This document shows, piece after piece, positions 10,247 through 25,458 of a DNA stretch of 32,244 nt (position 1 is its first letter; each line of letters starts with the position of its first letter). The stretch is from Myxococcales bacterium (GTDB lineage Bacteria; Myxococcota_A; Polyangia; Polyangiales; Houyiibacteriaceae), in contig JAOTYL010000019.1 of the NCBI GenBank assembly GCA_029861865.1, positions 1-32,244 of the forward strand. Direction: 5' to 3'. Position numbers and translations under genes: made by a program. The notes beneath the pieces are model-generated. The model was not told where the DNA came from and did no database searches. It was given only the letters and a program-made list of their open reading frames with translations.

Positions 10247-10293
10247 GATTACCTGCCTTCTTCGGGGTGGGGGGTTGAAGTTGCGGCATAGAA

Positions 10294-10307
10294 GCAAGTT
10301 GCGTGCC
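10294..10307 (-). promoter_or_regulatory. Sigma-54 promoter P1 (leftward)
   Basis: Read on the minus strand this is GGCACGCAACTTGC: -24 GG and -12 GC separated by exactly 10 bases, with the consensus GGCACG and TTGC blocks intact. The predicted transcript start is near 10283, about 37 bases before ATG 10246 of the coiled-coil gene. Two palindromes lie upstream at 10381-10396 and 10412-10429. Confidence 0.85.
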
Positions 10308-10380
10308 CGTGCTCCATCCGCTGAAAACGCCTCCAACTGCTTGATTGGCCGGCCTTACCCGCGCGAAACGCGGCCCCCGA

Positions 10381-10396
10381 GTGCGACATTTCGCAC
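10381..10396. promoter_or_regulatory. Proximal upstream activator site of P1
   Basis: GTGCGA-CATT-TCGCAC has perfect 6-bp inverted arms. Its centre is 81.5 bp upstream of the P1 -24 GG. The CGA-N4-TCG core is shared with the sites upstream of the other three sigma-54 promoters in the window, at almost the same distance. Confidence 0.7.
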
Positions 10397-10411
10397 CTCC
10401 CAAACGTGCAG

Positions 10412-10429
10412 GGGACCAAGTCTCGCCCC
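10412..10429. promoter_or_regulatory. Distal upstream activator site of P1
   Basis: Read in the direction of P1 (minus strand) it is GGGGCGA-GACT-TGGTCCC: a perfect first half-site GGGGCGA and a degenerate second half. It is centred 32 bp beyond the proximal site and about 114 bp from the -24 element. Confidence 0.55.
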
Positions 10430-10461: not shown

Positions 10462-11436
10462 ATGAGCAACGTAACCGAGACTGGCCTGTTTTCGTCCGCC
10501 GAGGAGCTCGAGCAAGCGAACCGCGAAGCGGGATGGAACCTTGAGTACCACCAACTCATGCCTGGTCCGTTCTTTTCAGGCTTTGCTTGTCGTGCTTGGG
10601 CGGACTCCTTGGTGATGCGTGAGTCCTTCGTGAGCAGTTTGGAGGTTCGCGGCGAGCCTCCGAGCGACATGACAGCGATCATCATCCCCGGGAAACCTTG
10701 CGCCAGGGTGACTTTGAACGGGGCAGAAGTCACGGAGGGCCGACTCTTCCTCGTGCCACCAGGCGCCGCGATAGACGCGTTCGTTCTGGGAGAGTTGGAG
10801 GCGTATTCCATATACCTGCCAGAGTCCGTCTTTCAGGAGGCCGCGCGCTGCGTCGACCCGTCGTGGCACGATAGGCGACCTAGCGAAGCGCTCAGCCTGC
10901 GTGCGGCGCCGCAAAGAGTCGATGCGTTGCGGCGTGAGTTGGGGATGTGGCTCGGCGGAGCGGACTCGACGGACGATCTAGCGCATCAGGTGCGCGCTTC
11001 GAACTTCGCGTTGAAGGTCGCTGCTCTGACTTTGGAAAACGAATGCGATTCCGAGTTCGAGCAAGCGTATCGGTCAGTTGCGCATCGAAAACAGCTGTCA
11101 CTCGCGAGAGAGTATATGGACGTCAACTTTCAGCACGCCGTCAAGATGACCCACGTGTGCGCGTATGCGGGTGTCGGGCTCCGCACCTTAGAGCGTGTTT
11201 TTCAGCACGAGCTAAACCTGTCCCCGAGCCGCTATTTACTGGCGCGCCGCCTCAGTACCGTCCGGCGAGTTCTCGTCTCCAGCGGCCCAGGACGCGGCGT
11301 CATCAAGCGCATCGCTATCGACCACGGCTTTACCCATATGGGCCGGTTTAGCGTCGAATATCGCCGGCAGTTCGGGGAGACGCCTTCGCAAACGTTGAAT
11401 GAAGTGCGCCTGCCCCTCCCCGTATCCGTTCATTAA
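10462..11436 (+). CDS. AraC-family transcriptional regulator
   Basis: A 324-residue protein starting at ATG 10462. Residues about 30-150 form an AraC-type beta-rich sensor domain (GWNLEYHQLMPGPFFSGFAC, later GRLFLVPPGAAIDAF). The C-terminal 100 residues are the double helix-turn-helix: LSLAREYMDVNFQHAVKMTH, AGVGLRTLERVFQHE, SPSRYLLARRLSTVRRVL, and the signature IAIDHGFTHMGRFSVEYRRQFGETPSQTL. Such proteins usually activate promoters by binding direct repeats. The gene is divergent from P1 and directly upstream of the sigma-54 activator gene, so it may control that gene or respond to the same signal. An in-frame ATG at 10345 would run through the P1 activator sites and is less likely. Confidence 0.85.
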   Translation: MSNVTETGLFSSAEELEQANREAGWNLEYHQLMPGPFFSGFACRAWADSLVMRESFVSSLEVRGEPPSDMTAIIIPGKPCARVTLNGAEVTEGRLFLVPPGAAIDAFVLGELEAYSIYLPESVFQEAARCVDPSWHDRRPSEALSLRAAPQRVDALRRELGMWLGGADSTDDLAHQVRASNFALKVAALTLENECDSEFEQAYRSVAHRKQLSLAREYMDVNFQHAVKMTHVCAYAGVGLRTLERVFQHELNLSPSRYLLARRLSTVRRVLVSSGPGRGVIKRIAIDHGFTHMGRFSVEYRRQFGETPSQTLNEVRLPLPVSVH

Positions 11437-11456: not shown

Positions 11457-11507
11457 GACGCAATTCGGATATCGAATTCCGCGTCGCCGACGCAATTCGG
11501 ATACCGA
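11457..11507. repeat. 32-bp-spaced direct repeat upstream of the sigma-54 activator gene
   Basis: GACGCAATTCGGATATCGA at 11457 and GACGCAATTCGGATACCGA at 11489 differ at one base, and their starts are 32 bp apart. The first copy also holds the inverted pair ATTCG-GATAT-CGAAT. The repeats lie between the AraC-type gene and the activator gene, 45 bp or more before ATG 11552. Tandem direct repeats of this kind are the usual form of an AraC-type operator, so the neighbouring regulator is a candidate ligand. Confidence 0.6.
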
Positions 11508-11551
11508 TGGGGGTCGTATTGCGGGTAGGAGCCGTGGGAGAGTCGGCTTTC

Positions 11552-13381
11552 ATGACTCACCCGTTGCGGAAAATCTCCACCACCAGAGACCTGGCAAGGA
11601 CCGAGCTGAAACTCGAGATCGAGGCGATCCCAGACGCCGTCCTAGTCTTGAGACGGAATGGTTCGATCGTTCACGCAAACAGTCGCGCCGCCCGTCTGCT
11701 CGGATACGAGCCGCAAGAGTTGGCTCCGCGGATGGCCGAATCGCTACTTCCCACGAGGTATCGGGAGGAATACAGGAAGCTCATGCAGCGGTCTTTTGAG
11801 GAGCCTGCTGCGCGCCCCATCGATACAAGGTCAGACTTCCGAGCCGTGACGCGCGATGGCGAGGAATTTCCTTTGGAGATCGCCATCGGGCCGATGGCTG
11901 GAGGCGAGCAGGCGGTCGTGGTTTTGCGCGACACCACGGCCGCAACACAGTTGAGTGAAGAGCTGCGCGACAGCGAGCAGCGCTTTCGCATCGCAGCGGC
12001 GCAGACGGCAGACGTGCTTCAGCACATCAACGTGGAAGACAACCGCTACATGTGGTTCGGCGATATCGATGGCCTGTTAGGCTACGAGCCCGGCGAGTTT
12101 CCCCGTACGTTCGACGGCTGGCTCGAGCACATTCACCCCGATGACATCGACCGGATCAAGGCAGAAGTCGAGTGCATCGTGGAGAACGGCGAGCCCGGGT
12201 GGAATCTGCATTATCGAATACGCGCGAAGGACGGCTCTTACCAGCATTGGCTCGACCGAGGTACCGTCACCGGCTTTGTCGATGGGCGGGCCAATGAAGG
12301 GATCGGCGCCATCGTCGATCAGACCCACGAGCTCAAGGCCCGGCAGGAGCTGGAGCAGGCGCTCGCCGAAATTCGTAGGTTGAAAGCCCGGCTCGAGGCC
12401 GAGGGCGAATACTTGAGGCAGGAGATCAAGGGCAGCCACAACTTCGACGAGATTGTGGGCAGCAGCCCGGAGGTCCTGACCACGCTTCAGAAGCTCGAGC
12501 GGGTGGCCGACACCAACGCCACCGTGTTGCTGCTCGGTGAGACGGGCACGGGGAAGGAGCTCTTGGCTCGCGCCACCCATGCGAAAAGCAAGCGCAGCAA
12601 ACGGCCCTTGATCAAGGTCGACTGCACCACGCTGCCGTCGGGATTGGTCGAAAGCGAGCTCTTCGGGCATGAAAAAGGCGCCTTTACGGGTGCGCATGAA
12701 TCGAAGATCGGTCGATTCGAGCTGGCGCATCGCGGGACGATCTTCCTCGACGAAGTGGGGGAGCTGCCCCTAGAGCTGCAATCGAAGCTACTTCGAGTGA
12801 TCCAAGATGGCGAGCTCGAGCGGTTGGGAGGCAAAGGCGTCAAGAAGGTCGACGTCCGCGTGATCGCGGCCACGAATCGAAACCTTCGCGACGAAGTCCG
12901 CGCGGGACGATTTCGCGAAGACCTCTATTACCGGCTGAACGTATTCCCTGTTGAGATCCCGCCGCTGCGCAACCGGCCCGACGACATCCCGACGCTCGCC
13001 ATGTTTTTCCTCGCGCAGCGAGGCAAGGCACTCGGCAAGCAGGTGGAGCGAATTCCGGCCCAAACGATGGAGATGCTGATCGCGTACGCCTGGCCGGGGA
13101 ATGTTCGAGAGCTTCAGAACGTCATCGAACGCGCCATCATCCTCTCCTCCGGACCCGAGCTTCTGTTAGCCGAACCCTTGGAACCCCGCGAAGCGAGACC
13201 GCAGATGGCCAGTGGGGTGCTCCGTAAAGATCTCGAGGAATTGGAGCGGAAGCAGATTCTGGATGCGCTCGAGACCAGCCATTGGAGAATCAAGGGCGAC
13301 GGAAACGCAGCGGACCGCCTCGGTCTGAAACCAAGCACGCTGCGCTCCCGGATGAAGCGGCTCGGCATCGAGCGGGTTTAG
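11552..13381 (+). CDS. PAS-domain sigma-54-dependent transcriptional activator (enhancer-binding protein)
   Basis: A 609-residue activator starting at ATG 11552, which has GGGAGAG nine bases upstream; ATG 11507 is in frame but lacks a site and overlaps the direct repeat. Residues about 15-125 and 135-255 are two PAS domains (AIPDAVLVLRRNGSIVHANS; later a PAS-fold with WLEHIHPDDIDRIKAEV). A coiled-coil linker follows at about 255-290. The AAA+ domain has Walker A GETGTGKE at 329, the sigma-54 contact loop GAFTGA at 376 and Walker B IFLDE at 397. The C-terminal Fis-type helix-turn-helix contains ADRLGLKPSTLRSRMKRLG. There is no receiver domain, so the PAS domains probably sense a signal directly. 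It sits among four sigma-54 promoters with shared palindromes and is the likely activator of them. Confidence 0.93.
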   Translation: MTHPLRKISTTRDLARTELKLEIEAIPDAVLVLRRNGSIVHANSRAARLLGYEPQELAPRMAESLLPTRYREEYRKLMQRSFEEPAARPIDTRSDFRAVTRDGEEFPLEIAIGPMAGGEQAVVVLRDTTAATQLSEELRDSEQRFRIAAAQTADVLQHINVEDNRYMWFGDIDGLLGYEPGEFPRTFDGWLEHIHPDDIDRIKAEVECIVENGEPGWNLHYRIRAKDGSYQHWLDRGTVTGFVDGRANEGIGAIVDQTHELKARQELEQALAEIRRLKARLEAEGEYLRQEIKGSHNFDEIVGSSPEVLTTLQKLERVADTNATVLLLGETGTGKELLARATHAKSKRSKRPLIKVDCTTLPSGLVESELFGHEKGAFTGAHESKIGRFELAHRGTIFLDEVGELPLELQSKLLRVIQDGELERLGGKGVKKVDVRVIAATNRNLRDEVRAGRFREDLYYRLNVFPVEIPPLRNRPDDIPTLAMFFLAQRGKALGKQVERIPAQTMEMLIAYAWPGNVRELQNVIERAIILSSGPELLLAEPLEPREARPQMASGVLRKDLEELERKQILDALETSHWRIKGDGNAADRLGLKPSTLRSRMKRLGIERV

Positions 13382-13388
13382 TTTCGCG

Positions 13389-13406
13389 GGGGCGAGATCG
13401 CGCGCG
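13389..13406. promoter_or_regulatory. Distal upstream activator site of P2
   Basis: GGGGCGA-GATC-GCGCGCG: perfect first half-site and degenerate second half. It is centred 30 bp before the proximal site and 116.5 bp before the -24 GG of P2. It starts eight bases after the stop codon of the activator gene. Confidence 0.55.
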
Positions 13407-13417
13407 TCGCTCCCAAA

Positions 13418-13437
13418 GGGCGCGATATCTCGCGCCC
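13418..13437. promoter_or_regulatory. Proximal upstream activator site of P2
   Basis: GGGCGCGA-TATC-TCGCGCCC has perfect 8-bp inverted arms. It is centred 86.5 bp upstream of the P2 -24 GG. It could be misread as a terminator of the activator gene, but there is no following T-run and the core matches the other activator sites. Confidence 0.75.
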
Positions 13438-13513
13438 GCGGCCCCGCGCTCGACCCGAGCGAACCGTTACGGATCGCTGTCTTCCTGGCGGGCGCAGCAT
13501 AGCGTGCGAAACC

Positions 13514-13527
13514 GGCACGGAGTTTGC
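13514..13527 (+). promoter_or_regulatory. Sigma-54 promoter P2
   Basis: GGCACGGAGTTTGC: GG and GC separated by 10 bases, with both consensus blocks present. The transcript is predicted to start near 13539, about 45 bases before ATG 13584. Confidence 0.87.
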
Positions 13528-13583
13528 TTTGTCTTCGGGTCCGGAGCGTCGCTCCAGTACCCCAAAGCGAAAGGCAAACGACC

Positions 13584-18763: not shown

Positions 18764-18781
18764 GGGGCGAAATCGTTCACA
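18764..18781. promoter_or_regulatory. Candidate distal upstream activator site of P3
   Basis: GGGGCGA-AATC is a perfect first half-site with the NATC spacer, but the second half GTTCACA does not match. Its centre is 22 bp before the proximal site, not 30-32 as at the other promoters, so it is the weakest of the eight sites. Confidence 0.35.
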
Positions 18782-18785
18782 TGCT

Positions 18786-18803
18786 GGGGCGACATCTCGC
18801 CCC
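18786..18803. promoter_or_regulatory. Proximal upstream activator site of P3
   Basis: GGGGCGA-CATC-TCGCCCC has perfect 7-bp inverted arms and is the cleanest example of the motif. It is centred 86.5 bp upstream of the P3 -24 GG. Confidence 0.78.
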
Positions 18804-18880
18804 TTGGACCAGCACTCGAAGCGCCGACAAAATACTGCTTTTGGGGTTCTTCGGGGCTCCCTTCAGGAAGCCTAGGAGTC

Positions 18881-18894
18881 GGCACGCGAATTGC
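18881..18894 (+). promoter_or_regulatory. Sigma-54 promoter P3
   Basis: GGCACGCGAATTGC: GG and GC separated by 10 bases with consensus blocks. The transcript start is predicted near 18906, about 58 bases before ATG 18964. Confidence 0.87.
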
Positions 18895-18963
18895 TTCAGG
18901 CAAGTCTTGAAGAACTAGGCCGCGCTTGGGTAGGCTCGCCGTCCAACCGCGAAGGAGTCCGTG

Positions 18964-21590: not shown

Positions 21591-21637
21591 CGGCAAGTTG
21601 CGTGCCCTGAAGCGATAGACCTTTCGTCGGTCGACAG

Positions 21638-24667: not shown

Positions 24668-24794
24668 AGTTTGCCTCCAAGTCGGACATCGAAGCCCCGC
24701 GCAAGACAAATTGCAAGGACGAATTGGAGAACCGATGCATGAACGTTGTTGAACTAACTCGGTCAGTGCGTCTACAGTGCGCCCACACATCAAG

Positions 24795-24807
24795 GGGACA
24801 TGGTCCC
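24795..24807. promoter_or_regulatory. Short palindrome just before the H1-like gene's ribosome binding site
   Basis: GGGAC-ATG-GTCCC has perfect 5-bp arms and ends one base before the GAGGAG ribosome binding site of the next gene. It could be an operator or a small mRNA hairpin affecting translation; chance is possible at this length. Confidence 0.3.
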
Positions 24808-24819
24808 GAGGAGACGCTG

Positions 24820-25149
24820 ATGGCGACTGCAAAGAAGAGAAAAGCACCTGCGAAGAAGCGCGCGGCCAAGAAGAAGCCGACGTTGGCCGCACGGATACGC
24901 GCTGAGTACGCGAAACTCAAGAAGGATGCCGCGGCACACGACAAGAAGGTCAAGGCAGACCTTGCCGCGCTCAAGAAGAAAGCCGAGAAGAAGCGCGCCG
25001 CGAACAAGAAGAAGCTCGCGGCCGCGGAGAAGAAGCTGAAAGCCGCGCTGAAGCCGAAGAAGAAGCGCGCCACGAAGAAACGCACGACCAAGAAACGGGC
25101 CCCCGCCAAGAAGCGCACCACGAAAAAGGCCCCGGCGAAGAAGAAATAG
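24820..25149 (+). CDS. Histone H1-like lysine-rich DNA-binding protein
   Basis: A 109-residue, extremely basic protein made mostly of Lys, Ala, Arg and Thr. Residues 1-18 and about 78-109 are KKRxxAKK-type repeats (PAKKRAAKKK; RATKKRTTKKRAPAKKRTTK) as in bacterial H1/Hc1-like proteins. Residues 20-75 form a charged helix (IRAEYAKLKKDAAAHDKKVK). ATG 24820 has GAGGAG six bases upstream; an in-frame ATG at 24724 lacks such a site and would add a non-basic stretch. It probably binds DNA non-specifically and compacts the nucleoid. It is followed by the P4 control region. Alternative roles in RNA or polyphosphate binding cannot be excluded. Confidence 0.8.
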   Translation: MATAKKRKAPAKKRAAKKKPTLAARIRAEYAKLKKDAAAHDKKVKADLAALKKKAEKKRAANKKKLAAAEKKLKAALKPKKKRATKKRTTKKRAPAKKRTTKKAPAKKK

Positions 25150-25251: not shown

Positions 25252-25269
25252 AGGGCGAGATCCTGCCCC
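25252..25269. promoter_or_regulatory. Distal upstream activator site of P4
   Basis: AGGGCGA-GATC-CTGCCCC: near-perfect first half and five of seven matches in the second. It is centred 30 bp before the proximal site and 114.5 bp before the -24 GG. Confidence 0.6.
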
Positions 25270-25281
25270 CCGGTCGATCTG

Positions 25282-25299
25282 GGTGCGATATCTCGACCC
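25282..25299. promoter_or_regulatory. Proximal upstream activator site of P4
   Basis: GGTGCGA-TATC-TCGACCC: CGA-TATC-TCG core identical to the P2 proximal site, with arms matching except at one pair. It is centred 84.5 bp upstream of the P4 -24 GG. Confidence 0.7.
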
Positions 25300-25374
25300 G
25301 TTGCGGATCATCTCTGGTTGGCTGAGAGCGCGATTCCGTGCGTTTGAGTTTGGATCGGTTCTTACGCGAGGTCC

Positions 25375-25388
25375 GGCACGCGGTTTGC
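25375..25388 (+). promoter_or_regulatory. Sigma-54 promoter P4
   Basis: GGCACGCGGTTTGC: GG and GC separated by 10 bases, both consensus blocks intact. The transcript start is predicted near 25400, about 59 bases before ATG 25459. Confidence 0.87.
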
Positions 25389-25458
25389 AGCGGGTGCACC
25401 TTCAACGTCGAGCGGTTGGGAGCGCCACACCGAGGCCCACCCGCTCGTCACCAAGACG

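Follow-up and report, generated by a model that had tools for sequence, protein, structure and literature searches.

Paired putative activator sites, the distal one asymmetric, upstream of four predicted sigma-54 promoters in a Myxococcales contig

At enterobacterial glnAp2, the NtrC enhancer is a tandem pair of dimer sites 32 bp apart, with centres near -108 and -140, that lies upstream of a sigma-54 promoter. A review gives positions of about -90 and -140 for NtrC enhancer sites and emphasises looping and the use of multiple sites (PMC7408454). Tandem sites are also found with other bacterial enhancer-binding proteins (bEBPs): GcsR of Pseudomonas aeruginosa, a TyrR-like bEBP, has tandem 18-bp sites (TGTAACG-N4-CGTTCCG) before an RpoN promoter (PMC4894688), and the LuxO enhancers of the Vibrio qrr genes lie 80-120 bp before sigma-54 promoters, with loop lengths that step by ~11 bp (PMC4740811). 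In Myxococcus xanthus, the bEBP Nla28 uses repeated 8-bp half-sites with variable spacers (PMC9765219).

Here we analyse a complete contig of 32,244 bp (the window; G000:C20) from a 4.2-Mb Myxococcales genome. Four predicted sigma-54 promoters, P1-P4, are each preceded by two putative activator sites, the distal of which is asymmetric, an arrangement that the sequence supports well. We consider it likely that P1-P4 form a small local sigma-54 regulon of the bEBP encoded at 11507-13381, with two dimers per enhancer. The elements are as follows.

11507-13381, plus strand: putative activator gene, a PAS-PAS-AAA+ (GAFTGA)-Fis HTH bEBP of 624 aa (Pfam, translation)
10412-10429, minus strand: predicted P1 distal site, GGGGCGA-GACT-TGGTCCC in minus-strand reading (9.7 bits, p 1.1e-4; second half at background)
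10380-10397, minus strand: predicted P1 proximal site, GGTGCGA-AATG-TCGCACT in minus-strand reading (matrix score)
10293-10308, minus strand: predicted P1 sigma-54 promoter, GGGCACGCAACTTGCT (one mismatch to consensus)
13387-13406, plus strand: predicted P2 distal site, GGGGCGA-GATC-GCGCGCG, centre about 13397.5 (14.9 bits, p 7e-5)
13418-13437, plus strand: predicted P2 proximal site, GGGCGCGA-TATC-TCGCGCCC, centre 13427.5 (near-perfect palindrome, 30 bp below the distal centre)
13513-13528, plus strand: predicted P2 sigma-54 promoter, CGGCACGGAGTTTGCT (one mismatch to TGGCACGN4TTGCW)
18764-18781, plus strand: predicted P3 distal site, GGGGCGA-AATC-GTTCACA (5.5 bits, p 3.8e-4; 22 bp above the proximal centre)
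18786-18803, plus strand: predicted P3 proximal site, GGGGCGA-CATC-TCGCCCC (exact consensus match)
18880-18895, plus strand: predicted P3 sigma-54 promoter, CGGCACGCGAATTGCT (one mismatch to consensus)
25252-25269, plus strand: predicted P4 distal site, AGGGCGA-GATC-CTGCCCC (13.2 bits, p 9e-5)
25282-25299, plus strand: predicted P4 proximal site, GGTGCGA-TATC-TCGACCC (matrix score)
25374-25389, plus strand: predicted P4 sigma-54 promoter, CGGCACGCGGTTTGCA (one mismatch to consensus)

The putative activator, whose true start is possibly the Met at 11552, carries two features of its class, an AAA+ sigma-54 interaction domain with a GAFTGA loop (Sigma54_activat, PF00158, 7.4e-70; GETGTGKE and GHEKGAFTGA in the translation) and a C-terminal Fis-type HTH (HTH_8, 4.4e-11). 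Pfam identifies two PAS stretches (PAS_3, 7e-24) and no receiver, so the protein does not qualify as an NtrC orthologue; with PAS and no GAF it does not qualify as an FhlA orthologue, and its likeness to FhlA is confined to the AAA+/HTH part (about 50%). The gene sits within the cluster of P1-P4, the P2 site pair begins a few bases past its stop codon, and we infer that its product is the likely binder of the P1-P4 sites.

Exactly four sequences in the window match the sigma-54 consensus with one mismatch, and these are P1-P4. A loose scan (up to three mismatches) returned 55 matches against 46 expected, no better than chance; only the four one-mismatch matches carry weight. A sigma-54-like sequence nearly the same as P1, GGGCACGCAACTTGCC, lies at 21592-21607 (minus strand) behind the M48 gene, with no activator site upstream of it. 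P1 would drive a coiled-coil ORF (about 10246-9824) and a sulfatase gene (9793-8240). The predicted targets of P2 are genes for a DUF1269 protein, a type I phosphodiesterase and an MscS-type channel. P3 would drive small membrane-protein ORFs (18961 and 19259), a DAGK-type kinase (19753), an M48 peptidase (20709) and a BrkB-family protein (21638), and P4 an alpha-amylase family enzyme (25459) and an AI-2E-family transporter (27434). This predicted set is in keeping with the general association between sigma-54 and the cell exterior (PMC3162934). An uncharacterised bEBP thereby gains a predicted four-promoter regulon of envelope and stress-type genes, together with a recognition word.

The proximal sites are of the type GGGGCGA-NATN-TCGCCCC and, as the initial annotation had described, are good palindromes at all four promoters, with both halves scoring 10.7-13.2 bits. 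Their centres lie 80, 85, 85 and 83 bp upstream of the -24 element at P1, P2, P3 and P4, and the distal centres lie a further 32, 30, 22 and 30 bp up. The distance between proximal site and promoter, which the initial annotation overlooked, varies no more than the pair spacing does. It also bears on the reading that the palindromes terminate transcription of the upstream genes: those of P2-P4 do follow genes and would fold into GC-rich hairpins, but none is followed by a T-run, and all share a common sequence at a constant 80-85 bp before sigma-54 promoters, making a terminator role most improbable.

The P2 pair at 13389-13437 is present as first described. With transcription expected to start at ~13539, as judged from the -12 position, its centres would fall near -111 and -141, almost equal to those of the NtrC sites at glnAp2. 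The NtrC-type layout of two tandem sites ~30 bp apart and ~110-140 bp before the start recurs with spacings of 30-32 bp at P1, P2 and P4 and 22 bp at P3, the second half of the distal site being weak or at background. By analogy, the P1-P4 pairs most likely work like this known kind of bacterial enhancer. NtrC itself differs: it is a response regulator with a receiver domain and recognises another word, whereas the bEBP of the window has two PAS stretches and no receiver. The sites share the 7-4-7 shape of the GcsR sites (7-bp arms, 4-bp spacer); GcsR differs in having three full sites per promoter, another sequence and another regulator family.

To assess the distal sites, we derived a weight matrix solely from the four proximal sites, keeping the distal sites out, and scanned offsets of 12-70 bp upstream of each proximal site (59 offsets). 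At all four promoters the best upstream match was the distal site listed above, with empirical per-position p values of 1.1e-4, 7e-5, 3.8e-4 and 9e-5 for P1, P2, P3 and P4; corrected for 59 offsets and multiplied on the assumption of independence, these give a rough joint p of about 3e-9. The second, distal sites at P1-P4 are not chance. Their GC-rich surroundings and the background-level second halves at P1 and P3 are what one would expect of fortuitous look-alikes, but the top-ranked match falls at the listed offset in 4/4 cases, and [AG]GGGCGA[AG]A, a 9-mer defined post hoc, occurs in the 60 bp upstream of every proximal site (4/4) versus 0.1-0.3% of dinucleotide shuffles for each; we give this explanation almost no credence. 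The P4 distal site was also recovered as a 72% direct repeat of the P2 pair (repeat family D12).

The matrix recovers the distal sites because of a near-perfect first half (12.7, 12.7, 11.8 and 10.7 bits at P1-P4; p 4e-5 to 1.7e-4), which matches the proximal halves. The second halves are poorer, as the initial annotation held: weak at P2 (2.2 bits, beside 12.7 for the first half) and P4, where they reach p about 0.01, and at background at P1 (-2.9 bits, p 0.07) and P3 (-6.3 bits, p 0.15, beside 11.8 bits for the first half). P3 had been singled out for a 22-bp gap and a very weak second site; the gap and a weak second half are present, but it is not the sole weak case, since the second half at P1 likewise does not rise above background. 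The sequence at these two promoters thus does not demand a second full dimer.

This asymmetry leaves some room for an arrangement of three half-sites, in which the proximal palindrome holds the one dimer and the distal GGGGCGA, a solitary half-site, serves only to load or orient additional protomers. The equality of the distal first halves with the proximal halves, next to second halves that are weak or at background, would suit it, as would the 8-bp half-site clusters used by Nla28 (PMC9765219). Nla28 reads CT(C/G)CG(C/G)AG as direct repeats in a large regulon; the window has palindromic sites at four promoters. Against three half-sites, the second halves at P2 and P4 score above background (p about 0.01). 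Pairs in other genomes can also consist of two full palindromes, a property that the search itself required. We regard three half-sites as a serious possibility, though not the probable one.

Under the favoured reading of two dimers per enhancer, the one-component bEBP probably senses a signal through its PAS domains. One dimer would occupy the strong palindrome, ~110 bp ahead of each start site. Another would dock about 22 or 30-32 bp further up, where one protomer would read the near-perfect half-site and the other would contact DNA that is a poor match or non-specific. With two dimers on the same enhancer, the ATPase ring would assemble more readily, then loop to the sigma-54 polymerase and open the promoter, as at NtrC enhancers. 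We infer that binding of the two dimers would be cooperative. Two sites would fit the finding that active DmpR is a dimer of dimers (PMC7264223). Graded promoter strength, as initially proposed, would be a guess; site quality may set the grade. The four natural promoters, differing only in the distal half-site and the spacing (22 versus 30 bp), form a clean set for probing a half-good second enhancer site.

The combination of site and promoter appears to be local. The pattern GCGANATSTCG N65-95 GGCACGNNNNTTGC has exactly four matches among 183 genomes of the order, all in the window, and its reversed-pattern control has 0; the site with the full promoter is absent from the 182 other genomes. 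A search for further regulon members elsewhere in the genome gave two loose matches only, inside coding frames and without a -12 element. No orthologous control regions were found among the genomes reached: the best relatives of the bEBP match in the AAA+/HTH part only (45-61%), the DUF1269 neighbour is absent from other genomes of the class, and relatives of the amylase in the genus stand in another gene setting, without the sites.

The core word recurs more widely. A looser conservation test took in 377 genomes of the phylum and did not require a promoter; the pair pattern GCGANATNTCG..GCGANATNTCG was found in 22 of them. At nine places, in other families of the phylum, pairs or triplets of the core GCGANATNTCGC precede strong sigma-54 promoters, for which the expected number of matches is 0.0033 in 240 bp. 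The spacings are 22 bp in G396, 23 in G328, 29 in G422, 34 in G336 (divergent promoters), 18 + 23 in G389, 23 + 17 in G513, 29 and 23 at two places in G373, and 18 in G556. The recognition word thus recurs with different partner spacings, spanning 17-34 bp, with 22-23 and 29 bp each found repeatedly.

The geometry first proposed, a strict 30-bp, three-turn arrangement, is borne out in part only. The values of 32, 30 and 30 bp at P1, P2 and P4 stand, but 'strict' is too strong a word: the pair spacings show no significant helical phase in the window (10.5-bp phase, p 0.10, n=4) or overall (p 0.30). A 5.9-bp periodicity of the pooled spacings, which emerged from a period scan, is not trusted. 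The spacing at P3, at first taken as odd, belongs to an ordinary class, given that 22-23 bp recurs in other genomes. Comparison of the sequences thus points to paired sites, and not a fixed 30 bp, as the recurring feature, and the step from a fixed 30-bp geometry to cooperative binding would be the weaker for it. Both sites have the NATC spacer at P2, P3 and P4; P1 departs from it, with GACT in the distal and AATG in the proximal site. When the four centre bases were left free, N-A-T-N occurred in 9/47 matches outside the window (p about 0.002), and the rest look like chance; this excess suggests that the spacer rule is N-A-T-N, with A-T at the centre, and that the C of NATC is local.

Distances from site to promoter, pooled from the other genomes, fit a 10.7-bp period (p 0.003), resembling the ~11-bp stepping of LuxO at the qrr genes, where the word differs from that of the window; the window's own distances show no significant period (n=8). 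One site lies at 80-85 bp in 6/11 promoters of other genomes, three of these genomes coming from a search that favoured such distances, and the partner may lie above or below it.

A bEBP gene lies within 2 kb at 4/9 of the places and within 6 kb at two more. The recognition helices of these nearby bEBPs include PSTLRSRM, PTTLRSRL and PSTLKSRM, identical or close to the PSTLRSRM of the window bEBP. These neighbours weigh against the idea that another regulator binds the pairs while the bEBP binds elsewhere. The AraC-type protein encoded at 10463-11436, beside the bEBP gene, would be a candidate, but the same core adjoins bEBP genes with similar recognition helices and sigma-54 promoters in distant genomes, and bEBP sites typically lie, as these do, about 80-85 bp upstream of -24. 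We judge a different regulator to be improbable and retain the bEBP as the likely binder.

The genes behind the paired sites elsewhere encode rubrerythrin, pyridine nucleotide-disulphide oxidoreductases, a solute-binding protein, a luciferase-like monooxygenase and 3-hydroxyacyl-CoA dehydrogenase. Since these targets differ, it appears that several unrelated regulons use one word. A pyridine nucleotide-disulphide oxidoreductase gene follows GCGANATNTCGC pairs or triplets in L202 (G389), L200 (G513) and L199 (G422), two of them beside a bEBP gene; these loci apparently form a separate conserved regulon. A bolder and rather doubtful generalization would make GCGANATNTCGC a phylum-wide enhancer word shared by many non-orthologous bEBPs of the helix class P[ST]TLxSR, with promoters re-wired by a moving module (a site ~82 bp upstream of -24, with a partner above or below it) and the distal half-site giving direction here.

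Closer relatives of the bEBP use another word. The closest in the same genus are a paralog on G000:C15 (59% over AAA+ and HTH) and proteins in G004 (61%) and G009 (58%). Directly behind each of the three genes, a 20-bp palindrome stands 78-80 bp before a sigma-54 promoter; the word is ATTTCGTnGnnCnACGAGAT, and the palindrome is single, with no partner 30 bp away. Comparison of the layouts suggests that the ~80-bp distance is common to related systems in the genus, whereas the 30-bp partner is not. At the paralogous locus (L129, G000:C15:78879-80400), the bEBP gene is followed by its own sigma-54 promoter and the palindrome ATTTCGTAGTTCTACGAGAT, before an ORF that is isochorismatase-like by sequence. 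A half-site-like CCGTGGGTG after this palindrome is conserved in relatives.

The two ends of the contig show no overlap. We rejected mis-binning because its tetranucleotide profile fits four other contigs of the genome as well as those fit each other (0.92-0.95); its similarity to other organisms is at most 0.90. The bEBP and DUF1269 genes lack orthologues in the sampled genus or order, although the composition of the contig matches the genome; the contig is perhaps a recently gained block. Just upstream of P4, the ORF at 24724-25149 has a lysine/alanine-rich, histone-H1-like repetitive tail (AAGAAG-type repeats). Between the AraC-type and bEBP genes, a 19-bp direct repeat, GACGCAATTCGGATA(T/C)CGA, occurs at 11457-11475 and 11489-11507 with a spacing of 32 bp, and may be a putative operator of the bEBP gene itself.
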